Shown here one piece after another: positions 1 through 48,488 of a stretch of DNA of 52,788 nt; position 1 is the stretch's first letter; every line of letters starts with the position of its first letter. Both the position numbers and the translations under genes were made by a program. Origin of the DNA: Deltaproteobacteria bacterium (GTDB taxonomy: Bacteria > Myxococcota_A > Polyangia > Haliangiales > Haliangiaceae); NCBI GenBank assembly GCA_005887925.1, contig VBLP01000432.1:1-52788 (forward strand). Reading direction: 5' to 3'. Under the pieces are notes generated by a model. That model worked only from the letters and a program-made list of their open reading frames with translations. It was not told where the DNA came from and ran no database searches.

Positions 1-3000
1 ACCGCGCCGGGCCGCGTGGTCGCGCTGCCGTCGTATCCCTGGCAGCGCGAGCGGTTCTGGCATGAAGCCAAGCCGACCGCGACCGCCGCCGTCGATCGCA
101 CCGATCCGTCCGCGCATCCGCTGCTCGGCTCGCCGGTCATCCTGGCTCATGCGCCGCGGCACCGCGTCTGGCAGGCGATCGCGGATCTCGACCGGCTGCC
201 GTACATCGACGATCACCGCGTCCAGGGTCTCGCGGTGCTGCCCGGCGCCGCGTACGTCGAGATGGCGATGGCCGCAGCCGCGCAGGTGTTCGGCGCCGAG
301 ACGCGCGCGCTGTCGGCGTTCGAGTTCCAGCGCCTGCTGTTCTTCCCGGAGGACGGCGCTCGCATCCTGCAGACCAGCCTCGTCATCGATCCCACGGGGG
401 AGGATCGACCCCCCTTCATCGATGACGAGGCGACGGGCGCCTCGTTCCAGGTGCACAGCCGGCCGGCCGATGCTGCCGATGCCCCCTGGACGCTGCACGC
501 ATCGGCGCGGATCGATGCGATCGCCGCGGCGGAGGCACCCGCGGAGGTTGCGCCTGCGGACGCATCGACGATCGGTGCGATCCAGGAGCGTTGCCCGGCC
601 ACGATCGCGGCTGCGGACTTCTATCGCGAGTTCGCCGAGCGCGGCAACCAGTGGGGACCACGCTTCCAGGGCATCGCGGCGCTGTGGCGCGGCGAGCACG
701 AGGCACTCGCCGAGCTCCAGGTGCCGTCCGCGCTCGAAGCCGAGCTGGCTCGCTATCGCGTGCATCCGGCCGTGCTCGATGCCTGTCTCCAGGTCCTCGG
801 CGCCACGGTTCCGGTCGAGGCCACCGGGACGACGCAGTCGTTCGTACCGGTCCACGTCGATCGCGTGGTGGTTCGTGGTCGGCCGCGCGGCATGCGGTTA
901 TGGAGTCACGCCCGCCTCGATGCGAACGCGGCGCAGAGTGCGGCTGGGTTCAGCGGCGATGTTCGTCTGCTCGACGAAGATGGCACCGTCGTCGTCGAGC
1001 TCCTCGGCCTGCGCGGTCGCGGCCTCGATCGCGATGCAGTCGCGGCGGCACCTGCCAAGCTCGACTGGTTCCACGAGCTGCGCTGGGCATCGAAGCCGCT
1101 CGCGGCGAAGACCTCGCAAGCGGGGCAGGGGCGCTGGCTCGTGTTTGCGGACGAGCTCGGTGTCGGCGCAGCGCTCACCGAGCGCCTGCGTACGGCCGGC
1201 GACGACGTGATCTGCGTCCGCACCGGCGACCGCTTCGAGCGCGATCGCGACGGCACCTACCGCGTCCGTCCGGACGCGACCGACGACATCGAGCACTTGC
1301 TCGCGGCGGTGGCGGCGACCGGAGTGCCAGCCTGGCGCGGCGCGGTTCATCTGTGGAGCCTCGACGCACCGGTCGAGCCCGCAACCGCGGCGATGCTGAC
1401 GGATGCACAGGGGCCCACCTGCTGCTTCGTCGCCGGGCTGTTGCGCGGACTGTCCGCGCTCGCCGCCCCGCCGCGGCTGTGGCTGATCACGCGCGGCGCC
1501 CAGGCAGTGGCCCCCGACGACCGTCCGGCGATGCTCGCGCAGGCGCCGCTCTGGGGCCTCGGCCGGACGCTGCCGCTCGAGCATCCTGCCCTGTGGCGTG
1601 GCCTGGTCGACCTCGATCCCGAGGCCGGCATCGACGACAGCGCCGCCCAGCTCGCCGGCGAGCTCCACAGCTCCGATGGCGAAGATCAGATCGCGTATCG
1701 CGCCGGCTCACGGCTCGCGGCTCGACTCGCGCCGGCGGCAGCGCCCCCGGCGGACACGCAGCTCGCGCTTCGCGCCGACGGCGCGTATCTCGTGACCGGC
1801 GGCCTCGGCGGCCTCGGCCTTGCCGCCGCCGAACGCCTGATCGAACGCGGGGCACGGCATCTGATCCTGCTCGGCCGCAGCGGGCTGCCCGATCGCGCCA
1901 CGTGGTCCGATCTGCCGGCCGACGCGCCGGTCGCCCCGGCGATCGCCGCGATCCGGCGCCTGGAAGCGCGCGGTGCGACCGTTCACGTCGTGGCGGTCGA
2001 CGTCGCCGACGAGGACCGGCTCGCCGCGTGCCTCGCCGCGCTGCGCGCCGACGGGCTCCCGCCGATCTGCGGCGCGATCCACGCCGCCGGCATCGCCGAG
2101 CTCGTGCCGCTCGCGGACAGCGACACCGGCACGCTGCTCTCGGTGCTCCGGCCCAAGCTGCAGGGTGGCTACGCGCTGCACCGCGTGCTCGCGCGCGAGC
2201 CGCTCGACTTCTTCGTCCTGTACTCGTCGATGGCCTCGATCCTGAGCTCGCCGCTGCTCGGCGCGTACGCGGCCGCCAACGCGTTCCTCGACGCGCTCGC
2301 CGCGCATCGCCGCGCGCTCGGCCAGCCCGCGATCAGCATCGGCTGGGGCTACTGGGAACAGATCGGCATGGGCGCGCGATTCCAGGCCGCGCGCGGACGC
2401 GACGGCACGGCCGAGGGCATGGGCAGCTTCTCGCCGGCCGACGGTCTCGCGGCGCTCGAGCGCGTCATCGGGGCCAACCCGGTGCACATCGGCGTCATGC
2501 CGATCGACTGGCAGCGCTGGCGGCTCGCCCACGGCGACGCGGCTCGCCTCCCCGTGCTGGCCGACGTCTGCACCGGACCGGCGCACCCGCCCGCGGCACG
2601 CCGGACCTCGAAGATCGACGTCGCAGCGCTGCTCGCGCAGCCACCCGACGAGCAGACCGCGGCGCTCACGGCGTACCTGCGCCGCGAGCTCGCGCGCGTG
2701 CTCCGGCTCCCCGAGGCGCGCATCGACATCGCGCAGCCGCTGAACCGACTCGGCCTCGACTCGCTGATGGCCGTCGAGCTCAAGAACGGCATCGAAGCCG
2801 ACCTCGGCGTGATGGTGCCGGTGGTCCGGTTCCTCCAGGGACCGAGCATCGCGCAGCTCGCCGAGCAGCTCATCACCTTGCTCGCGGCCCGCGCAGAGAG
2901 CAGCGCGCAGGCCGCGCCCGATCCCGCGCTGCCGACGATCGTCGCGGAGCCCGGCGCGCGCTGCGAGCCGTTCCCGCTCAACGACATCCAGCAAGCGTAC

Positions 3001-6000
3001 TGGGTCGGCCGCAACGGCTTCTTCGAGCTCGGATCGGTCTCGGCGCACATGTACGTCGAGGTCGACGGCAGCGATCTCGACATCGCCCGGCTGCAGGACG
3101 CGTGGCAGCGGCTGGTCGCCCGTCACGACATGCTGCGCGCCATCATCCTGCCGGACGGTCGCCAGCAGGTGTTGCCCGTCGTGCCGGCGTACATCATCGA
3201 GGTCGACGACCTGCGCGGCGAGGACGCCGAGCGCGCGGCTGCGCGGCTCGCGGCGACGCGCGAGCGGCTGTCACATCAGGTGATGCCGTCCGACCGCTGG
3301 CCGCTGTTCGAGATTCGCGCATCGCGGCTCGACGACCGTCGGGTCCGGATGCACCTGTCCTTCGACATCCTGATCGCCGACGTCTGGAGCTGGCAGATCC
3401 TGTTCCGTGAGTGGGCAGCGCTGTACGGCAGCACCGGCGCTGCGCTCCCGCCGCTCGAGATCACGTTCCGCGACTACGTCCTCGCGGAGCGAGCGCTCGA
3501 AGGCAGCGAAGCCGAGCAGCGATCGCTGGCGTACTGGCGCGACCGGATCCCGAGCCTGCCGCCGGCGCCGGAGCTGCCGCTCGCGTCCAGTCCCGACCCC
3601 AGGGCGCAAGGACGGTTCGTTCGCCGCACCGCGACGCTCGAAGCTCCCGCGTGGCGGCGGCTGAAGGCGCGCGCGCACGAGGTGGGTCTGACCCCGTCGG
3701 GCGTGCTCATGGCCGCGTTCTCCGAGGTGCTAGCGACCTGGAGCAAGACGCCGCGCTTCACGCTCAACATCACGCTGTTCCATCGCCTGCCGCTGCATCC
3801 GCAGGTCAACGACATCGTCGGCGATTTCACCTCGGTCAACTTGCTCGCGATCGACGCCGCCGCCGGCGACAGCTTCGAGAGTCGCGCGCTCGCCGTGCAG
3901 CGCCAGCTGTGGGAGGACCTCGAGCACAGCCGGGTCAGCGGCGTGCACGTCCTGCGCGAGCTCGCGCGCGCCCAGCACAGCGCGCCGCGCGCCCTGATGC
4001 CGATCGTGTTCACCAGCACCCTGGCGACGTCGTACAGCAGCGACGAGGACGGCTTCCCGATCGACTGGCTCGGCGAGGTGGCCTACAGCATCTCGCAAAC
4101 GCCGCAGGTCTGGATCGATCACCAGGTGTTCGAGCGCCGCGGCGCGCTGACGTTCAACTGGGATGCCGTGGAGGCGATCTTCCCGCCGGGCCTGCTCGAC
4201 GCGATGTTCGCTGCGTACAAGGCGCTCCTCGCGCGGCTCGCCGACGAACCCGAGAGCTGGACCGAGGTCGAGCGGCGCCTGGTGCCGGCCGCGGAGCTCG
4301 CCGTGCAGGTGGCCGCCAACGCCACCGACGCGGCGATCCCGCCGGGCCTGCTCCATACGCGGTTCGAGGATCAGGCCGACCGGCAGCCCGACGCGATCGC
4401 CGTGATCTCCGACGGCCGCACGCTGAGCTACCGCGAGCTCGATCAGCGCTCGACGGAACTCGCCCACGAGCTGCGTGCGCGGGGCGCCCGACCCGGGCAG
4501 CTGGTCGCGATCGTCATGGACAAGGGCTGGGAGCAGGTGGTCGCGGCCGTTGCGGTGCTGCAAGCCGGTGCCGCCTACGTGCCGATCTCACCGGCGGTTC
4601 CCCCGGAGCGCCTGGCGTACCTGCTCGCGCACAGCGAGGTCCGGATCGCCATCACGCAGCCCAGCGTCGACGCGGGGCTGGTCTGGCCGGCCGACGTGGA
4701 GCACCTGTGCGTCACGGATCGCCCGCCGGCGCCATGTGCCCGGCTCGCACCGGTGCAGACCGCCCTGGATCTCGCGTATGTCATCTACACCTCGGGCTCG
4801 ACGGGCCTGCCGAAGGGCGTGATGATCGAGCACCGCGCGGCGGTCAACACCATCGTCGACATGAACCAGCGCTTCGGCGTCGGACCGACCGATCGCATCC
4901 TGGCGCTGTCGTCGCTGACATTCGACCTCTCGGTCTACGACATCTTCGGCGCGCTGGCCGCCGGCGCAGCGATCGTGCTGCCCGCGCCGTCGGCGACCCG
5001 GGATCCCGCGCTGTGGTCCGAGCTGATGCTCCGGACCGGCGTCACGATCTGGAACTCGGTTCCGGCGCTGATGCAGGCGCTCGTCGACTACGCGGACGGC
5101 GACCCGGCGCGCATTCCCGGCTCGCTGCGCCTCGTGCTGATGAGCGGCGACTGGATCCCGGTCGGTCTGCCCGATCGCATTCGCGCGCTCGTCGAGGGCG
5201 TCGAGGTCCATAGCCTCGGCGGCGCCACCGAGGCCGCGATCTGGTCGATCGTCTATCCGATCCAGACCGTCGATCCGACCTGGAAGAGCATCCCGTACGG
5301 CAAGCCAATGCTCAATCAGCGCTTCCACGTGCTGAACGAGCTGCTCGAGCCATGTCCGATCGGCGTGCCGGGTCAGCTGTACATCGCCGGCACAGGGCTC
5401 GCGCGCGGCTACTGGCGCGATGAGGACAAGACCGCGAAGAGCTTCTTCGTCCACCCGCGCACCGGCGAGCGGCTGTATCGCACCGGCGACCTCGGCCGCT
5501 ACCTGCCCGACGGCAACCTCGAGTTCCTCGGCCGCGAGGACTTCCAGGTCAAGGTCAACGGCTTTCGCGTCGAGCTCGGTGAGATCGAAGCGGCGCTCGA
5601 GCTGCATCCGGCGATTGCCCAGGCGGTCGCCGCTGCGGCGGGCGACGTGACGGCGCGGCGACTGGTCGGTTATGTCGTGCCGCGCGACGGTCGCGCACCC
5701 ACCGCCGGCGAGCTACGCGAGTTCCTGCTGCAGAAGCTACCCGCGTACCTCGTGCCCGGCAGCTTCGTCGTGGTGCCGGCGTTGCCGCTGTCGGCCAACG
5801 GCAAGGTCGATCGCGGCGCGCTCGTCGCTTCCGCCGCGCCACCTGCGCCACCTGCGCCTCACGCGGCAGCATCGGTCGCGCAGCTGCCGATCGTCGCGCG
5901 GCTCGGCGAGCTGATCCGCCGGGTCCTCGACATCGACGCCATCGATCCGAGCACGAACCTGCTCGATCTCGGCGTGGCGTCGCTCGAGATGATCCGGATC

Positions 6001-6129
6001 GCGAACCTGCTGCAGCAAGAGCTCGGCGCCCGGCCGCAGATCGACGAGTTCTATCTCCACCCCACGCTGGACGGACTGGCGCAGTGGTACGCCGAATCCG
6101 ACCTGACGGAGCATGCCCATGCTGGCTGA
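1..6129 (+). CDS. Hybrid PKS-NRPS megasynthase, 3' part (DH-KR-ACP-Cy-A-PCP)
   Basis: Frame is open from base 1, so the 5' end is outside the window; the first residues (ALPSYPWQRERFW) are the linker that follows a PKS acyltransferase domain. Counting residues from base 1: dehydratase with HxxxGxxxxP at His72 and DxxxQ at Asp260; ketoreductase with the GGLGGLG nucleotide loop near 600 and Tyr756; ACP with Ser921 in LGLDSLM; heterocyclisation domain with DxxxxDxxS (Asp1122, Asp1127, Ser1130) instead of HHxxxDG; adenylation domain with YTSGSTGLPKG at 1596; carrier protein with Ser1994. Reading the pocket residues by eye gives D-L-Y-N-L-S-L-I, the classic cysteine code. The module is therefore expected to make an alpha,beta-unsaturated acyl unit, add Cys and cyclise it to a thiazoline. 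There is no ER, methyltransferase, oxidase or C-terminal thioesterase. The stop overlaps the next gene. Confidence 0.93.
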   Translation, partial: TAPGRVVALPSYPWQRERFWHEAKPTATAAVDRTDPSAHPLLGSPVILAHAPRHRVWQAIADLDRLPYIDDHRVQGLAVLPGAAYVEMAMAAAAQVFGAETRALSAFEFQRLLFFPEDGARILQTSLVIDPTGEDRPPFIDDEATGASFQVHSRPADAADAPWTLHASARIDAIAAAEAPAEVAPADASTIGAIQERCPATIAAADFYREFAERGNQWGPRFQGIAALWRGEHEALAELQVPSALEAELARYRVHPAVLDACLQVLGATVPVEATGTTQSFVPVHVDRVVVRGRPRGMRLWSHARLDANAAQSAAGFSGDVRLLDEDGTVVVELLGLRGRGLDRDAVAAAPAKLDWFHELRWASKPLAAKTSQAGQGRWLVFADELGVGAALTERLRTAGDDVICVRTGDRFERDRDGTYRVRPDATDDIEHLLAAVAATGVPAWRGAVHLWSLDAPVEPATAAMLTDAQGPTCCFVAGLLRGLSALAAPPRLWLITRGAQAVAPDDRPAMLAQAPLWGLGRTLPLEHPALWRGLVDLDPEAGIDDSAAQLAGELHSSDGEDQIAYRAGSRLAARLAPAAAPPADTQLALRADGAYLVTGGLGGLGLAAAERLIERGARHLILLGRSGLPDRATWSDLPADAPVAPAIAAIRRLEARGATVHVVAVDVADEDRLAACLAALRADGLPPICGAIHAAGIAELVPLADSDTGTLLSVLRPKLQGGYALHRVLAREPLDFFVLYSSMASILSSPLLGAYAAANAFLDALAAHRRALGQPAISIGWGYWEQIGMGARFQAARGRDGTAEGMGSFSPADGLAALERVIGANPVHIGVMPIDWQRWRLAHGDAARLPVLADVCTGPAHPPAARRTSKIDVAALLAQPPDEQTAALTAYLRRELARVLRLPEARIDIAQPLNRLGLDSLMAVELKNGIEADLGVMVPVVRFLQGPSIAQLAEQLITLLAARAESSAQAAPDPALPTIVAEPGARCEPFPLNDIQQAYWVGRNGFFELGSVSAHMYVEVDGSDLDIARLQDAWQRLVARHDMLRAIILPDGRQQVLPVVPAYIIEVDDLRGEDAERAAARLAATRERLSHQVMPSDRWPLFEIRASRLDDRRVRMHLSFDILIADVWSWQILFREWAALYGSTGAALPPLEITFRDYVLAERALEGSEAEQRSLAYWRDRIPSLPPAPELPLASSPDPRAQGRFVRRTATLEAPAWRRLKARAHEVGLTPSGVLMAAFSEVLATWSKTPRFTLNITLFHRLPLHPQVNDIVGDFTSVNLLAIDAAAGDSFESRALAVQRQLWEDLEHSRVSGVHVLRELARAQHSAPRALMPIVFTSTLATSYSSDEDGFPIDWLGEVAYSISQTPQVWIDHQVFERRGALTFNWDAVEAIFPPGLLDAMFAAYKALLARLADEPESWTEVERRLVPAAELAVQVAANATDAAIPPGLLHTRFEDQADRQPDAIAVISDGRTLSYRELDQRSTELAHELRARGARPGQLVAIVMDKGWEQVVAAVAVLQAGAAYVPISPAVPPERLAYLLAHSEVRIAITQPSVDAGLVWPADVEHLCVTDRPPAPCARLAPVQTALDLAYVIYTSGSTGLPKGVMIEHRAAVNTIVDMNQRFGVGPTDRILALSSLTFDLSVYDIFGALAAGAAIVLPAPSATRDPALWSELMLRTGVTIWNSVPALMQALVDYADGDPARIPGSLRLVLMSGDWIPVGLPDRIRALVEGVEVHSLGGATEAAIWSIVYPIQTVDPTWKSIPYGKPMLNQRFHVLNELLEPCPIGVPGQLYIAGTGLARGYWRDEDKTAKSFFVHPRTGERLYRTGDLGRYLPDGNLEFLGREDFQVKVNGFRVELGEIEAALELHPAIAQAVAAAAGDVTARRLVGYVVPRDGRAPTAGELREFLLQKLPAYLVPGSFVVVPALPLSANGKVDRGALVASAAPPAPPAPHAAASVAQLPIVARLGELIRRVLDIDAIDPSTNLLDLGVASLEMIRIANLLQQELGARPQIDEFYLHPTLDGLAQWYAESDLTEHAHAG

Positions 6130-8852: not shown

Positions 8853-9556
<704 letters not shown>

Positions 9557-9557
<1 letters not shown>

Positions 9558-11917
9558 TGCGCGCCCTCGACCGCAAGCTGTTTCGCGACCTCGCCCGGAT
9601 GAAGTCCCAGGCGATCGCGATCTCGCTCGTGGTCGCGTCCGGCGTCGCGCTGTTCGTCGCGACGATGACGACGTATCGCTCGCTGCGCGCGTCCGAGGCG
9701 GTGTTCTACCGCCAGCAGCGGTTCGCACAGGTCTGGTCGGGACTCGGCCGCGCGCCGGTCTCGGTGGCGCGCGACATCGCCGCGCTGCCCGGCGTCACCG
9801 CGGTCGACGCCCGGCTCGTCGCGCGCGCGATCCTCGACATCCGCGACCTCGCAGAACCGGCCTCCGGCCTGCTCGTCTCGATCCCCGACCGACCGGGGCA
9901 CGGCGTCAACGATCTCTACATCCGGCGCGGTCGCCACCTCGAGCCGGGCCACGCCGACGAGGTGATGGTCAGCGAGGCGTTCGCCGACAAGAACCACCTC
10001 CAGCCCGGAGACTCGATCCCGGCGACCGTGGCGGGCCACCGCACGGCGCTCCGCATCGTCGGCATCGCGCTGTCGCCGGAGTTCGTCATGCCGGTGGAGC
10101 CCGGCGCGGCGGCGCCCGACGATCGCCGGTTCGGCATCCTGTGGATCGCGCGCAACCAGCTCGAGGCGCTGCTCGACATGAACGGCTCGTTCAACGAGAC
10201 CGCGCTGCTCCTCGCGCCGGGCACCGACGAGCAAGCCGTGATCGCGGCCGTCGATCGCATCCTCGCGCCCTATGGCGGCGCCGGCGCCTACGGTCGCAAG
10301 ACCCAGACCTCGCATGTGATGCTCGAGGAGCACATCGATCAGCTCCGCGGCCTGACGCTGCTGGTCCCGTCGATCTTCCTCCTCGTCTCGGCGTTCCTCG
10401 TCAACGTCGTGCTCGCTCGCCTGATCGCGACCCAGCGCGAGCAGATCGGCATGCTCAAGGCGTTCGGATACTCGAACGCGCGCGTCGCACTCCACTACCT
10501 CGAGCTCACGCTGATCATCGTCCTGCTCGGCGTCGGTTTCGGCGTTCCGGTCGGATCGTGGCTCGGCCGGCTGATGGCGGTGTTCTATGCCCAGTTCTTC
10601 CGCTTTCCGGCGCTGGTGTTCGAGCTCGAGCCTGGCGTCGCGTTCGGCGGCGCGGCGGTCGCCGTGTTCGCCGCGACCGCGGGTGCGCTCGGCACGCTCC
10701 GGCGCGTGGTCGCGATGCCTCCGATCGTGGCGATGACGCCCGAGGTGCCGGCGTTTCGCCGTACGCTGCTCGACCGCATCGGCATCACGCCGCTGCTGTC
10801 GCCAGCGGTACGGATGATCGTCCGCAACCTGACCAAGCGACCGCTGCGCTCGGGATTGGCATCCGCCGGCATGGCGCTCGCCGTCGCGGTCGTCGTCGTG
10901 GGCGGCTCGTCGGCCGATGGCTTCCATCGCATGCGCGATGTCCAGTTCGAGGCGGTGCAGCGGGAGGATCTCAGCGTCGCGCTACGCCACCCGCGCGCGC
11001 TCGGTACGGCGCGCGACTTCCTCGCGCTACCCGGCGTGCGCGCTGCCGAGCCGTACCGGATCGTTCCGGCACGGCTGCTCGGGCGCGGCCGGTACGAGGA
11101 CATCGCGCTGTACGGGCTTCCGGATGGTGGGCGACTTCGCAACGTCGTCGACACCGACTTCCAGCGCGCGCCACGGCTAGACGCCGGCGTCGTCCTGACC
11201 GCGTGGACAGCCCGCCACCTCGGGCTCGTGCCCGGCGACCTGCTGTCGATCGAGATCCGCGAGAACCGCCGGCGCGTGGTCAGCGTCCGGCTCGAGGCCA
11301 CCGTCGAGGATCCGCTCGGCCAGGCGGCCTACATGGAGCTCGGCGCGCTGGGCCGGCTGCTCGGCGAGCCCGAGACCTACTCGCACGTCAGCTTGCTCGT
11401 CGATCCGACCCGCGCGCCGGCGCTATACGACCAGCTGCAGCACGCGCCGCAGGCCATGGCGATCGGTATCCGGCGCAGCACGTTCGACAGCTTCAAGTCG
11501 ATGAGCGAGACCAGCCTCGACTTCGTCCGCACGATCGTGCTGATATTTGCGACGATCATCGCGTTCGGCGTCGTGTACAACACGGCGCGGATCGCGCTGG
11601 CCGAGCGCGGGCGCGAGCTCGCCACGCTGCGCGTGCTCGGCTACACGCGCGGCGAGGCATCGGGGATCATGCTCGGAGAGATCGCGATCCTCGCGGCTCC
11701 GGCGATCCCGCTCGGCCTGGCGCTCGGCTACCTGCTGACCGGCGCGGTCGCGGCCTCGATGACCGGCTCGCGCATGCACGTGCCGGTGATCGTGTCGCTA
11801 CCGACGTACGCGTTCGCGGTCGTCGTGTTCATCGTATCGGCGCTGGTCTCGGCGCTCGTCGTCCGCCGGCGGATCGACCGGCTCGACCTGATCGAGGTCC
11901 TGAAAGCGAGGGAATGA
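9557..11917 (+). CDS. ABC transporter permease with two FtsX domains
   Basis: 786 aa, starting at the ATG that shares its A with the previous stop. An N-terminal membrane segment (AIAISLVVASGVALFVATM) is followed by a large periplasmic domain with LPGVTAVDARLVARAI. A three-helix FtsX block follows, containing LARLIATQREQIGMLKAFGYS. A second transmembrane segment near GLASAGMALAVAVVVVGG opens a second periplasmic/FtsX half that ends with ALAERGRELATLRVLGYTRGE and two more helices. The duplicated architecture is that of 8-10-helix FtsX permeases rather than the 4-helix MacB. It works with the upstream ATPase and the downstream adaptor. Confidence 0.92.
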
Positions 11918-11918
11918 C

Positions 11919-13100
11919 ATGAGGCGGAAAAAACTCCTCCGGCGTATCACCTGGCTCGGCGTCGTCGCCGTCGTCATCGCGGCGATCGTCTGGGCGCTGC
12001 GTCCCCGGCCGATTGCCGTCGAGACCGTTGCCGTCACGCGCGGCCCCCTGACCGCGGCCGTCACCGGGGAAGGCCGAACCCGGGTCCGCGACCTGTTCGT
12101 CGTGTCGACCTCCGTCGATGGGCAGCTGCAGCGGATCTCGCTCCAGCCCGGCGACCCGGTCAGCGCAGGCGCGGTCATCGCGCAGATCCAGCCGATCGCG
12201 CCGCGTCCGCTCGACGCGCGCAGCCGCGCCGAGGCGCGGGCCCAGGTCGAGGTCGCGCGCGCGGCGGTCGAGCGCGCCATCGCTACCGATCAGGAGGCTG
12301 CGGTCGCCGTCGAGCACGCCGACAGCGAGCTCGCCCGCTCGCAGAAGCTCGCACAGACCGGCGCGGTGCCGCGCGCGGAGGCCGAGCATGCCGGTCACGA
12401 GTCCGGGAGCCGTCGCCACGCGAAGACGGCCGCCCATGCCGCGGTGCGCGAGGCACGCGCCGAGTTGATCCGCGCCCAGGCAGCTGTCGTTCCGACGACC
12501 GCGCCCGGCGACGCTGCGGTCTCGATCACCGCTCCGGTCTCGGGCCGCGTGCTGCGCGTCCTGCGCGAGAGCGCCGGTCCGGTTGCCGCCGGCACGCCGC
12601 TGATCGAGATCGGCGACGTCACTGGCCTCGAGATCCGGGCCGACCTGCTGTCGAGCGACGCGGCATCCGTCCGCGACGGGGCCGCCGCGATCGTCACCAG
12701 CTGGGGCGGTCCCAAGCCGCTCGCCGCCCGCGTTCGCCGCGTCGAGCCCGCCGCATTCACCAAGATCTCCGCGCTGGGCCTCGAGGAGCAGCGCGTCCAC
12801 ATCGCGCTCGATTTCGTCGATCCGCTGCCGCCCGGCCTCGGCCACGACTACCGCGTCGACCTCGCGATCGTCACCTGGTCCGGTACCAGCGTCCTCCGCG
12901 TTCCCTCGCGATCGCTGTTCCGCGTTGGCGATCGCTGGGCCGTGTTCGCGATTCGCGATGGCCGCGCTCACCAGGTCTTCGTCGACCTCGGCGAGACCGA
13001 CGGCACGCTCACCGTCATCGAACGCGGGCTCGTCGAAGGCGATCGGATCATCGCGCAGCCAAGCGATACCGTGATCGACGGCACGCTCGTGCGAGCGTGA
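11919..13100 (+). CDS. HlyD-family periplasmic adaptor (membrane fusion protein)
   Basis: 393 aa, starting 1 bp after the permease stop. One N-terminal membrane helix (WLGVVAVVIAAIVWAL) is followed by a biotinyl-lipoyl half motif (STSVDGQLQRISLQPGDPVSAGAVIAQI). An Ala/Arg/Glu-rich alpha-helical hairpin spans about residues 105-185, and the second lipoyl half (ITAPVSGRVLRVLRESAGPVAAGTPL) and beta-barrel region follow. Such adaptors link an inner-membrane ABC pump to an outer-membrane TolC-like channel. No TolC homologue is present nearby, so a channel encoded elsewhere must be used. With the two preceding genes it forms a complete inner-membrane exporter unit. Confidence 0.93.
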   Translation: MRRKKLLRRITWLGVVAVVIAAIVWALRPRPIAVETVAVTRGPLTAAVTGEGRTRVRDLFVVSTSVDGQLQRISLQPGDPVSAGAVIAQIQPIAPRPLDARSRAEARAQVEVARAAVERAIATDQEAAVAVEHADSELARSQKLAQTGAVPRAEAEHAGHESGSRRHAKTAAHAAVREARAELIRAQAAVVPTTAPGDAAVSITAPVSGRVLRVLRESAGPVAAGTPLIEIGDVTGLEIRADLLSSDAASVRDGAAAIVTSWGGPKPLAARVRRVEPAAFTKISALGLEEQRVHIALDFVDPLPPGLGHDYRVDLAIVTWSGTSVLRVPSRSLFRVGDRWAVFAIRDGRAHQVFVDLGETDGTLTVIERGLVEGDRIIAQPSDTVIDGTLVRA

Positions 13101-36647: not shown

Positions 36648-37466
36648 ATGTTGATCATCACATCAATCTCGAATCTGGGGGTCATCAGCAGCGCTGTCCT
36701 GGCACTCTCGCTCGTCGGCGGCTGCGCCAGTGACCCGGAGGCGCAGCTGGACGACGAGGCTTCGGCAGACCAGGCGCTGATCGGGAACCCCGTGAACCTC
36801 GGCACAGCTGGCAGCTACGCGATCCTCTCCCAGGCCGGAATCTCCACCGTCCCACCCTCGGCCGTCACGGGCGATATGGGCGTCAGTCCGATCGCCGCCA
36901 CCGGGATCACGGGCTTCTCGTTGACCCTGGACGCCTCGAACACGTTCTCGACCTCGCCGCAGGTGACCGGCAAGGTGTACGCGGCCGACTATGCGTCGCC
37001 CACGCCGGCGAAGCTGACCACCGCGATCGGCGACATGCAGCACGCATTCACCGATGCAGCCGGGCGCGATGCGGACGTCACCGAGCTCGGTGGCGGGAAC
37101 CTCGGTGGGCGGACGCTCTTTCCCGGCGTCTATAAATGGGGAACGGGTGTCCTCATCCCGACCAGCGTCACGCTCGTGGGCCTCGCGACGGACGTGTGGA
37201 TCTTCGAGATCGCGCAGGACCTGACCCTGAGCAACTCCGCGAGCGTCATCCTCCGCTCCGCTCTCCCCCTCGGTCTCCTCGGTCCGCAGGCCAAGAACGT
37301 GTTCTGGCAGGTCAGCGGCAGCGTGACGCTTGGCTCGAGCTCGCACCTCGAAGGTGTCGTGCTGGCCAAGACGGCGATCGCGCTGGGATCGACCGCGTCG
37401 GTCAAAGGCAGGCTACTGTCGCAAACCGCGGTCACGCTGATCAACAACACGGTCGTCGGCCCGTGA
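36648..37466 (+). CDS. DUF3494 ice-binding-type lipoprotein
   Basis: 272 aa with a lipoprotein signal ending ALSLVGGC. The mature part matches the DUF3494 (ice-binding protein-like) beta-solenoid: LGTAGSYAILSQAGIS, SAVTGDMGVSP, GVYKWGTGVLIP, VWIFEIAQDLTLSNSASVIL and a closing AKNVFWQVSGSVTLGSSSHLEGVVLAKTAI. Members bind ice in cold-adapted microbes, but many in mesophiles act as envelope or adhesion proteins. The Thr/Ser/Ala-rich ladder could be an ice-binding face; this cannot be judged by eye. A start at 36648 is supported by GAAGGA upstream. Confidence 0.88.
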   Translation: MLIITSISNLGVISSAVLALSLVGGCASDPEAQLDDEASADQALIGNPVNLGTAGSYAILSQAGISTVPPSAVTGDMGVSPIAATGITGFSLTLDASNTFSTSPQVTGKVYAADYASPTPAKLTTAIGDMQHAFTDAAGRDADVTELGGGNLGGRTLFPGVYKWGTGVLIPTSVTLVGLATDVWIFEIAQDLTLSNSASVILRSALPLGLLGPQAKNVFWQVSGSVTLGSSSHLEGVVLAKTAIALGSTASVKGRLLSQTAVTLINNTVVGP

Positions 37467-43671: not shown

Positions 43672-45492
43672 TCAGGGGAAGCTCACCAGGTTGGTCACTG
43701 CATGGCTGGCGTTGACGGCGCTGCCGATGTCGTTGACGACGTGGTCGATGCCGCCGAAGCCGTTGAGGAAGACGCTCAGGACGTCGTGCAGCTGGACGCC
43801 CGGGGCCGGCGGAGCTTCGAACGCGCTGGTGGCGTGGATATCGGGGCCGGCGATGAAGTTGGAGTAGCTGCCCAGGCCCCACGCCTCGTGGGTCCGGACC
43901 GCATCGCCGATCTTGTAGGCAGCGAAACCATTGCGGCCGTCGTGCATCCAGGCGGCCTGGGTCGGTGGATCGTAGGGCAGCTCGTTCTGGAACATGATCG
44001 TCTTGCCGTCCTCGCCGTTCCAGATGACGTTGAATCTCTGGTAGTGCTCGACGAACAAGCCGTAGGCCGTGACGTGATCGCCGTTGATGACGACGCCGGT
44101 GTCGGCTCGATTCACCGTCCAGCCGACGCCGTTGCCGTGGTCGGCGCGCCAGGCCCAGATGTTGTCGAGGATGACGTTGTCGCTGTCGACGGCCAGGCTG
44201 AGGGTCGCCTGGCCCGGGGTGGCGCCGCCGATGCGAAAGAAGATGTCGTGCAGCGAGGTCGGATCGCTCGACGCGTCGCGACGCCGGCCGCGGTGGTCGC
44301 GGTCGTCGCGATCATCGCCATCGCCGTGACGGTCATCGTCGCCGATCTGGAGCAGCACCGGCGACCGGTCTGGACCGGCGTCGATCAGGAGGCCGGCGAG
44401 CTTGACGCCCGGGACGTCCGCGACCTGCATCGCCGCGATGTCGCGGTCGGGGACCAGCGTGGCAAAGCCGAGGCCGAGCACGATCGTGTCGGGCCGCTTG
44501 ACGTGGAGGGTCCTGTCGAGGTGATAGATGCCGGGTGTGAAGATCACGTGCTTGCCGCGATCGAGGGCGGTGTTGATCGCGTGGGCGGAGTCGGTCGGCG
44601 CGGCAATGAAGAAGCGGTCGATCGGCAGCGATGATCCGGCGCTGGTGCCGCCGGCCCATGTCGTACCGGCGGAATCGTGGCGCAACGCCGGGACGAAGAC
44701 CTGGAGCTGGCCGGCGGCATCGAGGTAGAGGAACGGCCGCTCGCGGGTGACCGGGCTGGACGGCAATGTGGTGTAGGGCGGCGGATCGAACGGCGTGTTG
44801 CCGAACGACTGGGGTGGCGCGCCGATGACACCGGAGAACACCTGATTCCAGACACCGTTGGACCAGCCATCGATGCTGCTGTCGCGCACCAGGAACTGTT
44901 GCTGCGAGCCATTGATGACGAAGCCGGTCCGGGAGTCGGCGATGAAGCCGCCGCTCGCGAACTGCGGGCCGGCGGTGCAGTAGTCCATCAGCGAGAGCGT
45001 GCCGCCGGTGACGTTCACCCGCCGCATCGACGACACCTGCGACACCGCCCAGAAGTTCGCCGTCGAGCGGCAGCCGACCTGCCCGGCGGCGTTGATCCGC
45101 AGCGTGAGGTTGCTGGGCGTCAGGCAGCGATTGTAGACATCGATGTGGCCATGGATGACGACGTCGGTGGGGGCGGCGCCGAGGCCGGCGACCTCGGTGT
45201 AGTAGCCGACCTGGAAGGTGAGCGGAGCGGCGACCGAGCCGTAGCTACCGGGTTTGAAGAGCAGGGTATAGCGCTGTGTGCCCATCTCGCTGTCGACCTG
45301 CTGCGCAGCGATGGCGTCCACCGTGGCCTGGATCTGGCTGGTCGGCATGCCCGGATCGAAGATGACGACGTTGGGACCGAGATCGGGGCGGGCGGCGGTT
45401 TCCAGCGGCTGCGCCCGCGCCGGCGAGTCGAGCGACAGGAGGGCCAGCAGAGCAGTCAGAAGCGGAATACTGATAGATGTGCGACGGAACAT
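43672..45492 (-). CDS. Secreted right-handed beta-helix protein (pectate-lyase/GH55-like)
   Basis: 606 aa from the ATG at 45492, preferred to the ATG at 45498 because GAGGAG then stands 7 bases upstream. Signal peptide ends SPARAQ. The body has typical beta-helix turns: VVIFDPGMPTSQIQATVDAI, YTLLFKPGSYGSVAAPLTFQVGYYTEVAGLG and DNVILDNIWAWRADHGNGVGWTVNRADTGVVINGDHV. An Asp/Arg/His-rich insert (~390-410) breaks one coil. Similar proteins are annotated as coagulation-factor or adenylyl-cyclase-like in actinobacteria, without known activity. It is 272 bp downstream of the lasso B2 gene on the same strand; co-transcription is possible but not shown. Confidence 0.78.
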   Translation of the reverse strand: MFRRTSISIPLLTALLALLSLDSPARAQPLETAARPDLGPNVVIFDPGMPTSQIQATVDAIAAQQVDSEMGTQRYTLLFKPGSYGSVAAPLTFQVGYYTEVAGLGAAPTDVVIHGHIDVYNRCLTPSNLTLRINAAGQVGCRSTANFWAVSQVSSMRRVNVTGGTLSLMDYCTAGPQFASGGFIADSRTGFVINGSQQQFLVRDSSIDGWSNGVWNQVFSGVIGAPPQSFGNTPFDPPPYTTLPSSPVTRERPFLYLDAAGQLQVFVPALRHDSAGTTWAGGTSAGSSLPIDRFFIAAPTDSAHAINTALDRGKHVIFTPGIYHLDRTLHVKRPDTIVLGLGFATLVPDRDIAAMQVADVPGVKLAGLLIDAGPDRSPVLLQIGDDDRHGDGDDRDDRDHRGRRRDASSDPTSLHDIFFRIGGATPGQATLSLAVDSDNVILDNIWAWRADHGNGVGWTVNRADTGVVINGDHVTAYGLFVEHYQRFNVIWNGEDGKTIMFQNELPYDPPTQAAWMHDGRNGFAAYKIGDAVRTHEAWGLGSYSNFIAGPDIHATSAFEAPPAPGVQLHDVLSVFLNGFGGIDHVVNDIGSAVNASHAVTNLVSFP

Positions 45493-45764
45493 GACCATGC
45501 TCCTCGTGTGTCATGAGATCGAGATGACGAATGTGGGTACATCCTGACCGGCGGCGTCGGTGCGGGCTCGATCGGCACCTCCTGGTGAGGGTCGGCGACG
45601 GCTGCACTATGCCCGAACCGGCAGTGATGGCTCGCTCGCGGCGACGGAATCGCGGTCTGTGTGCGGCCTTACGGCCGGGCTGCCATGCGATCGCAAGAGC
45701 TCCTCGGACCGGCACCGGGAGCACCTTGCCGGGCCGCGGGCGACGGGCAGTCGGGCTGCGGCTC

Positions 45765-46298
45765 TCAGCGCTGCGCGGGGTGCGTGCTGCCGCCGCGAGC
45801 GGCGAGGGCGTGCGCGGAGACTCGCTGGAGCACCTTGAATCCCTGCTTGACGGCGGCGGTGTCGTTGAGCACTTCGCCGTGGAGCTCGGCCCAGGAGTGG
45901 AAGCTGTACTCCGGGTTGCTCGAGCACAGCTCGCGCGCGACGGTGACCTCGCAGGGCAGGCCGAGGGCGGAGAGGTAGACAGCGAGCGAGAACGAGCGAG
46001 GCAGGCAGAGCCCGTTGGGCTCGAGGATCCGCAGGACGAGCTGGCTCCACAGGATCTCCTGGCGGGCGAGCCGGATCGCGACAGGCGGCGGGAGCGCGGT
46101 GTACCGGTCGCTCCCGGAGACGGGGCGCAGCTGCTGCAGGTAGCGATGGGCAGGCCCCCAGCCGTGCTTTCGCAGCATCCAGAGGGCACGGGCGGCGTGC
46201 ACCGCGGCGCGAGCCCGCAGCGGCATGGATACCGGAGGCGGCTCGGGAGCGTCGGAGCTCGCGAGGAGGAATGCCCAGTCGGGGGCTCGATGCCTCAT
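45765..46298 (-). CDS. Lasso peptide B2 protein (transglutaminase-like leader peptidase)
   Basis: 177 aa, start coupled to the B1 gene by an ATGA overlap. The Cys98 in NGLCLPRSFSLAVYLSALGLP, His134 in YSFHSWAELHGEVLND and Asp146 give the Cys-His-Asp order of B2 leader peptidases. This enzyme cuts the leader off the precursor so that the cyclase can close the ring. It belongs to the split B1/B2 layout. The C-terminal GGSTHPAQR tail is short and basic. This is the last of the four lasso genes. Confidence 0.92.
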   Translation of the reverse strand: MRHRAPDWAFLLASSDAPEPPPVSMPLRARAAVHAARALWMLRKHGWGPAHRYLQQLRPVSGSDRYTALPPPVAIRLARQEILWSQLVLRILEPNGLCLPRSFSLAVYLSALGLPCEVTVARELCSSNPEYSFHSWAELHGEVLNDTAAVKQGFKVLQRVSAHALAARGGSTHPAQR

Positions 46299-46573
46299 GC
46301 CGGCTCCGTCGCGCCGGACAGCAAGAGCTCGCGCGCGCGAAGCTCTGCGACCAGGCATTCGAGCCCGGCGCGCAGGGTGTCGGCGCTGCCGTCGATGCGT
46401 TCGATCAGATGCGCCACGACCTGATCGATCGTGTCGCACGCCAGCGCGGCCTCCAGCATGATCGTGGCGGTGACGTTGAGGTCGAAGTAGACGCCGGCGC
46501 GCGTGTCGAGGATGATCCCCGAGTCGTCGGTGGTGTCGAAGATGGCGTGGTCAGCTAGCGAAAGCACGGGCAT
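46295..46573 (-). CDS. Lasso peptide B1 protein (PqqD-like leader recognition)
   Basis: 92 aa PqqD/RRE protein: FDTTDDSGIILDTRAGVYFDLNVTATIMLEAAL, then a helical C-terminus with VAHLIERIDG. Such proteins bind the YxxP part of the precursor leader and deliver it to the B2 peptidase. The start lies 23 bp inside the cyclase gene and the stop overlaps B2, so C, B1 and B2 are one tight operon. Confidence 0.93.
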   Translation of the reverse strand: MPVLSLADHAIFDTTDDSGIILDTRAGVYFDLNVTATIMLEAALACDTIDQVVAHLIERIDGSADTLRAGLECLVAELRARELLLSGATEPA

Positions 46574-48217
46574 CGTTTGGACCTTTCCATGCTGTGCCGA
46601 GTCGCCGCTCCATGCTCCGCAGGAACAGCTCGCTCATGGCCGAGCAGATCAGGGCCTCGGCATTGCGCCGGATCGATACGGGCTGGCCGAGGGCTCCGGC
46701 CAGCAGCGCCGGGTTCACGATGCCGGTCCGGACGAGATGGGAACCGGGACTGCCGATCAGCTCCCGTAACAATGGCAGGTGGCGCAGGGCGTAGTTCTGG
46801 GGCGGCGAGTTCAGCCACGATCGCCCGGCGCGGCGCCAGATGCGATCCGGCAGCCGCCGGGCCAGCATCATCCGCAACACCGGCTTGTCGATCACCCTGC
46901 CTTGAAAGGGAATCCATCGGTACGCGTTGGGCAAGCGCATCGAGAGCCGGCGCAAGTCCCTGCTGCCCATCGGCGAGCACAGCAGGATGCCACGCTCCCG
47001 GAACAGGGCGAGATCCATCGTGAGCTCCTGGGGCATGAACTCGTAGTCGATCTTCTCGTCGGACACGCCGGACATCGGGGCGAGAAAGTCGCTCCGGCGC
47101 GCATTCTCGCCGATCGGCATGCTGCCTTCGAGCAGCGAAGCGTTGGAGATACAGCTCTTGAGGATGCGCGGCAGCTGCCAGCGCGAGGCCAGCAGCCCAT
47201 AGATCATCTCTTGCTTCTCGCGCCAGCGCAGGTCGCCGAACAGGATGTCGTGCACGCCGTAGTGCAGCGGACCGAACAGGATGTCGCCCTCACGGCCGGT
47301 GAGCAGGAAGGTCACACCATCCCCGGCGACGCGTTCGGCGGCTTGCTCGAGGTAGCGGTACCCTGTGTGGCTGTAGGGGTGCGGGAAATCCCAGCTCCTG
47401 GACAGATATCCGGCATCGTTGTCGGTCGGGATCGACACGAGCGGTACGTCGAGGTGCTCGCACACGGCGCGCGCGTAGGCCGACTCGTCGGCGAGCGGAT
47501 CATCGGTGTCCAGGTGGTAGGCGATCGCGTCTGCCCCGGCGTCCACCAGCGCGGTGAGCACGGACGACGAGTCGATGCCGCCGCTGAGCAAGACGCCGAT
47601 CCGGCCGCCGCCGGCGTAGGGCCGCACGGCCTCGAGCAGCAGCTGGTAGGCAAGCTCGGCGTACTCGGGGAGCGTGGTGCGGCGCGGCAGCGCGATCGGC
47701 GTGATGCGATCGTAGTCGACGGTGGTCGTGCGATGCGGCTCGAGGACCACCACCTGGCCCGCTCGGCGTCCGGATCCTCGACCAGGTCCGCGGGATCGGT
47801 GGACCATCGAACGGTGTGTCCGGAACGCCGGAAGAAGATCGTGCTGCTGTTGCCCAGGATGGTCTTGAACAGGTAGATCTTCTGCGGGGTCACCAGGCAC
47901 CCGACGAGCTCGCCGGGTATCTGCCGTAGCTCCTCGTAGCGTTCCTGCACGAGCGCCGCGTGAATCCGCGCCGCCAGCTCGGCGGTCGCCGGTGCGGCGA
48001 GCGCGCCAGACAAGAGCACGTGCTCGTTGTGAGCTGGTGAGGGCAGCGCGCTGGCCGATCCGCGCGGATTCAGCCACTGCAGGGCATAGCAGCCCCTGCG
48101 AGCCTCGCGCCCGGGATTTGCGACGCCCAGGAGGCGGATGCCGCGCGGAGCATCCGGAAACATGATTTGCCCGGAGCAGCCGATGTAGTGTCCGACGATG
48201 GGATTGCTATGTACCAT
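46551..48217 (-). CDS. Lasso cyclase C (asparagine-synthetase-like), apparent frameshift near 47760
   Basis: Two overlapping frames make up one ~555-aa protein. The N-terminal part (from ATG 48217, with AAGGTG upstream) carries a glutaminase-like fold reading PGELVGCLVTPQKIYLFKTILGNSSTIFF and then WSTDPADLVEDPDAERA. The C-terminal part resumes QVVVLEPHRTTTVDYDRITPI and holds the ATP site VLLSGGIDSSSV plus a DLALFRERGILLCSPM-type region. The switch point is a G/C run at about 47755-47762, where one added base would restore the frame; the span is 1667 bp, one short of a multiple of three. The enzyme adenylates the ring Asp/Glu and closes the macrolactam. If the shift is real, the pathway is probably broken. 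Confidence 0.85.
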
Positions 48218-48359
48218 GACGCACCTTGGATCGGCCGGCTCCGGGCCATTCATGGCAGCGAGCTGTATTCGCCGTCTCGATACTCCAGCGTCGACCAGGG
48301 CCCGGGTCTTCACGGGTGGATTCGATAGCTCGTACCGGCTCGCTGCGTGTCCGTGCAGG

Positions 48360-48488
48360 CTAGATGATGTTGCCGTGCGACAGCAGATCCGGCGTGCCAC
48401 GGTCGACGAGCGCCGTGAGCTGCTCGACCTTGCCCTTGACGGTCAGCGTGGGCTTCGCATAGGACACCTTGTTGGTCTTGGTCTTCAT
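48360..48488 (-). CDS. Lasso peptide precursor A (42 aa)
   Basis: ATG at 48488 follows AAAGGAAA by 5 bases. The 42-aa product has a leader with Tyr10-x-x-Pro13-x-Leu15-x3-Gly19-x5-Thr25, the YxxPxLxxxGxxxxxT pattern recognised by PqqD-like B1 proteins. With Thr25 at position -2, the core is residues 27-42, LVDRGTPDLLSHGNII. Leu1 and Asp8 can form an 8-residue macrolactam. The known citrulassin-type lasso peptides also start with Leu. A core starting at Ala26 with a 9-residue ring to Asp is the alternative. It lies 142 bp upstream of the cyclase gene. Confidence 0.88.
   Translation of the reverse strand: MKTKTNKVSYAKPTLTVKGKVEQLTALVDRGTPDLLSHGNII

Follow-up and report, generated by a model that had tools for sequence, protein, structure and literature searches.

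The window analysed here, a stretch of 52,788 nucleotides (contig VBLP01000432.1 of the Deltaproteobacteria bacterium assembly GCA_005887925.1), carries at 45765-48488 a set of lasso-peptide biosynthesis genes in the order A-C-B1-B2, all on the minus strand: a precursor (A), an asparagine-synthetase-like cyclase (C), and a leader-binding protein (B1) and a leader peptidase (B2) encoded by separate genes (Table 1). The first-pass annotation had described these genes as running in one direction with overlapping frames, and this is the arrangement found: C and B1 overlap by 23 nt, B1 and B2 at ATGA. SD-like sequences precede A, C and B1 (AAAGGAAA lies 5' of A). No ABC transporter gene adjoins the cluster, whereas at least one related Streptomyces cluster (L121) carries such a gene directly after B2.

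Table 1. Coordinates of the lasso-peptide genes and their features in the window
Feature	Position	Strand	Description
Precursor gene A	48360..48488	-	42 aa: MKTKTNKVSYAKPTLTVKGKVEQLTA leader + LVDRGTPDLLSHGNII core; translation
Predicted core	48363..48410	-	16 residues, Leu1-Asp8 macrolactam, 8-residue tail; from leader register and P7-D8
Cyclase C, N-terminal segment	47762..48217	-	~152 codons, first frame, ATG 48217; 99% match 47753-48217
Deletion junction in C	47760..47762	-	~76 nt out of frame, ~25 residues lost vs relatives
Cyclase C, C-terminal asparagine-synthetase-like segment	46551..47762	-	Second frame, stop 46551; PF00733
B1, PqqD-like leader-binding protein (RRE)	46295..46573	-	92 aa; PF05402 35.4 bits
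B2, transglutaminase-like leader peptidase	45765..46298	-	177 aa; Cys98/His134/Asp146; PF13471

Translated from its ATG (48488) to its stop codon (48360), precursor A reads MKTKTNKVSYAKPTLTVKGKVEQLTALVDRGTPDLLSHGNII, and its leader has exactly the spacing Y-x2-P-x-L-x3-G-x5-T-x, so that the YxxP-leader precursor noticed earlier is indeed present. A cut after Ala26 places Tyr at -17, Pro at -14, Leu at -12 and Thr25 at -2, in the register described for lasso leaders (PMC10368454; reviewed in PMC6784204), and the core is assigned as LVDRGTPDLLSHGNII on this basis. With YxxPxL at -17 to -12, Thr at -2 and an acidic residue (Asp8) within positions 7-9, A has the make-up of a lasso precursor; P7-D8 is conserved in most cores of the Nocardia and Streptomyces family described below. 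The predicted [M+H]+ of the core, computed on the assumption of no further modification, is 1701.93. The NCBIfam lasso_cyano leader model matches A at 4e-5, under the model cut-off; the idea of a cyanobacterial origin, which came from this match, was dropped because Nocardia precursors also match lasso_cyano weakly.

B1, which is 38-52% identical to actinobacterial B1 proteins, passes the cut-off for Pfam PqqD PF05402 (35.4 bits against 23.4), and matches NCBIfam lasso_PqqD_Strm NF033530 at 48.3 bits, under the cut-off of 70. Likewise B2 (46-63% identical to actinobacterial B2 proteins) passes Transglut_core3 PF13471 (29.7 bits, cut-off 26) and lies under the cut-off of NCBIfam lasso_biosyn_B2 NF033537 (30.8 bits, cut-off 33). 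Lasso matches below the NCBIfam cut-offs, with the Pfam cut-offs passed, fit a divergent member. Cys98, His134 and Asp146 of B2 are invariant across 13 family sequences; the first-pass calls of a PqqD-like B1 and a Cys-His-Asp B2 are thus upheld by the profiles and, for B2, by these residues. No sequence relative of B2 or C was found in the PDB.

The claim of an asparagine-synthetase-like cyclase stands for homology but not for intactness. C is not intact in the contig: its start and end lie in different frames, divided by an out-of-frame deletion of ~76 nt that is either a true mutation or an assembly error. The N-terminal segment aligns with the N-terminus of actinobacterial cyclases, the C-terminal half scores 61 bits against Pfam Asn_synthase PF00733, and the phase of GC by codon position shifts at ~47,750, both halves looking coding. 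Used as a joined phmmer query (made without two or three junction residues, and for searches and alignments only), C retrieves actinobacterial cyclases at E values down to 1.9e-164. When C was aligned with 12 actinobacterial cyclases, a 26-column block of the type DRETLWRxCRGD... (for example FDRETLWRVCRRDSISVFRNLVPVH in L114) proved to be conserved in the nine or ten relatives that align in full over this region and absent from the window at the junction; at this block L112 is without sequence, and L122, in several frames, is partial. The nucleotide comparison agrees, in that the joint ...GCCGAG/CGGGCCAG... fits a loss of ~76 nt, which accounts for the frame change. The intact cyclase expected of a lasso cluster is therefore lacking here, with C in two frames and ~25 residues missing, and no second allele or copy of C was found in the window's genome. 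The cyclase homologue of L122 (4743-6648, in a record of S. albus subsp. chlorinus) is likewise in several frames.

Relatives of B2 were sought by scanning genome contigs with degenerate B2 motif patterns, defined from the window B2 and two made-up sequences carrying motifs typical of lasso B2 proteins, and tblastn with the B2 of the window served to confirm the matches; members in other phyla could be missed by such a scan. The 12 strong relatives that it returned are all Actinomycetota (four Nocardia, seven Streptomyces and one Streptosporangium record), beyond which there are two weak matches elsewhere (E 3e-5 and 8e-5). A plain single-protein search of genome contigs with B2 gave no match, and B2 alignments with other loci of the window's phylum yielded no usable pattern, or chance matches in viral contigs only. 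Among the genomes sampled, the enzyme family occurs in 7 of 118 from Nocardia and 8 of 277 from Streptomyces, and in one of 396 from a broad Actinomycetota sample. Within the window's phylum the window B2 profile is found in a single genome of 365, the window's own, and in none of the 364 others, and none of 15 congeners has a B2 counterpart. No relatives of C, B2 or A were found on plasmids at the limits used.

C is mostly 45-49% identical to its Nocardia and Streptomyces relatives, whose operons are arranged A-C-B1-B2 and encode, for example, the cores LVFKGVPDLLSHGNIL and QLRRGTPDLLGHGNIW. Like the window, the clusters of Nocardia (L113, L115, L152, L153) and Streptomyces (L120, L121, L123, L146, L147) combine this order with a YxxPxL leader, a G5-(V/T)6-P7-D8 core and an (S/G)HGN(I/L) tail; unlike the window, most of them have an intact cyclase, and the window core differs from theirs at no fewer than 4 of 16 positions. 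Core G5-x-P7-D8-L9 and the HGN tail are shared by most relatives' precursors; the S. klenkii, N. colli and L149/L150 sub-branches carry other cores. The window has its B2 and C in this clade, the same gene order and a core of the form xxxxGxPDLxxHGNxx, and so belongs to the HGN-tail family. That Nocardia and Streptomyces have homologous A-C-B1-B2 operons whose cores match excludes chance and confirms the earlier reading of a split-B lasso locus in actinobacterial-style order: the locus is genuine, belongs to an already known kind and is unusual in this phylum. L116, L117 and L119, which form a branch within this family of enzymes, have cores quite different from these (for example HGGILLPDSPNSRTLL), so that a single enzyme clade goes with dissimilar cores.

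The product had been thought likely to be undescribed. The exact core LVDRGTPDLLSHGNII was not found elsewhere, and none of the family core strings searched is printed in the literature searched; novelty is reduced by the nearest core, that of Nocardia L115 and L153 (LVFKGVPDLLSHGNIL), which is identical at 12 of 16 positions, by the occurrence of the family in the Nocardia and Streptomyces genomes counted above, and by the look-alike lagmysin. Lagmysin (LAGQGSPDLLGGHSLL, class II; sequence from PMC12427821) is, by sequence comparison, the nearest characterised core: it shares with the window the 16-residue length, Leu1, Gly5, Pro7-Asp8-Leu9-Leu10 and a class II type without cysteines, while the tail is different and, comparing core sequence alone, 6 of 16 residues are identical. 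The citrulassins (LLQSSGNDRLILSKN), in which Leu1 and Asp8 are the ring residues (PMC12971885), have the same eight-residue Leu1-Asp8 ring; their Arg9, outside the ring, is replaced by Leu9 in the window core, which thus has no citrulline target and is not of citrulassin type, and citrulassin A is identical to it at 3 positions.

The first-pass annotation had also held that lasso loci outside actinobacteria and alphaproteobacteria are few, which is weak in the case of this phylum: at least 18 of 379 of its genomes carry other lasso loci, and one lasso cluster has been studied in vitro (PMC10368454). Matches to PF13471 are common in the 379 genomes. Of 40 loci examined in the phylum, 11 have a cyclase with a precursor of the Thr(-2) type next to it; B1-B2-C-A is the usual gene order in these, and most of their cores begin with Gly. 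A further 7 loci have Ile/Val(-2) precursors. In another genome of the phylum, L083 (8142-8635) carries a tandem pair of similar lasso precursors behind a single cyclase-like gene. One of the Ile/Val(-2) loci, L088, is the bsf cluster of Bradymonas sediminis, which links the sample with the delta-proteobacterial/myxobacterial group (GTDB places Bradymonadales in Myxococcota) and bears out the earlier suggestion of a myxobacterial genome at the level of the phylum. The codon-optimised bsfA printed in PMC10368454 encodes the L088 precursor, and the calculated core mass of 2015.842 compares with 2015.8417 in that paper. Like the window, the bsf cluster (PMC10368454) has split B1/B2 and a YxxPxL leader, and comes from the same phylum sample; it differs in its Ile(-2), Gly1 core, precursor kinase and gene order, and its B2 is 18% identical to that of the window, a likeness at family level only.

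In a tree of C, the window groups with 18 actinobacterial cyclases at 100/100, with a branch of 2.06 to eight cyclase rows of its own phylum; its place inside the actinobacterial clade is supported at a moderate 93/97, and the rooting depends on long branches. All strong relatives of the cluster being Actinomycetota, the contig might be actinobacterial contamination binned into a myxobacterial-phylum genome. We consider this very improbable, and largely reject it, as 14 of the 15 congeners match the contig somewhere within the neighbouring 18 kb (25.7-43.6 kb), several of them at 71-77% DNA identity over 1.4-7.7 kb (~71-75% and up to 7.7 kb at 25.7-33.4 kb); Gram-negative genes lie on the contig (PbpC, a bacterial alpha-2-macroglobulin and an outer-membrane barrel gene); and two paralogues of the flanking gene at 43672-45498 are found elsewhere in the same genome. 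The nearest flanks (41.5-48.9 kb) have weaker congener matches than the rest of the contig. By these comparisons the contig is native to the window's genome. Because most of it matches congeners, transfer is likelier than contamination, and horizontal transfer of the cluster from an actinobacterial lineage is the simplest account; C and B2 are only ~45-63% identical to their nearest relatives, which suggests an unsampled donor, the direction being read from the distribution. GC3 of the cluster genes (0.81-0.93) is similar to that of the neighbouring gene (0.89), and composition therefore gives no sign of recent acquisition.

We hypothesize, with good confidence, that an actinobacterial-family A-C-B1-B2 operon was horizontally acquired by a member of the myxobacterial phylum, and that the C deletion makes it, as assembled, a probable pseudo-cluster. 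Judging from the protein families, B1 would bind the YxxPxL leader and hand the precursor to B2; B2 would cut after Ala26, one residue past Thr25; and C would use ATP to activate Asp8 and couple it to the Leu1 amino group, closing the ring round the threaded tail. With C broken, ring closure should fail, so the product is probably not made by this copy, and the precursor would at most be trimmed and degraded.

Loss of function is what we infer for the locus, provided that the gap in C was not introduced during assembly or consensus calling; had it been, the living organism would have an intact, working actinobacterial-type lasso cluster. This second reading is possible, and we hold it to be distinctly the less probable: the assembly is a draft (778 contigs, 81% completeness), the frames of A, B1, B2 and the two halves of C run open apart from the gap and show a normal codon phase, and the SD-like sequences still stand before A, C and B1, yet the defect is a gap of ~76 nt and not a one-base slip, the search of the genome gave no second allele or copy, and the junction flanks hold no long direct repeat to explain an assembly collapse. 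An ATG at 47807, in the C-terminal frame and just upstream of the junction, could in principle allow the C-terminal half to be re-initiated and to pair with the N-terminal fragment, C then functioning as two polypeptides; since the ~25 residues kept by full-length relatives are gone and not merely split, we regard this as most unlikely. Scarcely any credence is given, similarly, to the reading that the cluster, having passed from Actinomycetota into a Gram-negative lineage of the myxobacterial phylum, remains functional with a cyclase that is shortened and in two pieces; this, if true, would mean that cyclase halves can be supplied separately.

The favoured reading, an acquired operon with a broken cyclase, implies a likely transfer of a whole four-gene lasso operon across phyla, and indicates that genome-mined lasso loci need a check of the cyclase frame before their products are hunted. 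An intact allele, should there be one, would make a Leu1-Asp8 lasso of the mass predicted above a concrete target; without one, the search is better directed at those Nocardia relatives whose cores are similar.

Elsewhere on the contig, at 1-6129 and 9493-13100, a PKS/NRPS hybrid gene running off the contig start (PS-DH, KR, ACP, condensation and AMP-binding domains) is followed by an 809-aa protein without Pfam match and an HlyD-type membrane-fusion protein; together these may be a biosynthetic cluster that is cut short and the exporter that belongs to it. The gene at 43672-45498 (minus strand) encodes a 608-aa protein with an apparent signal peptide and no Pfam or NCBIfam match; its two same-genome paralogues show 66-68% DNA identity, and it has no long DNA match in congeners. 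At 36648-37466 (plus strand) lies a gene for an ice-binding-like protein (PF11999, 228 bits).
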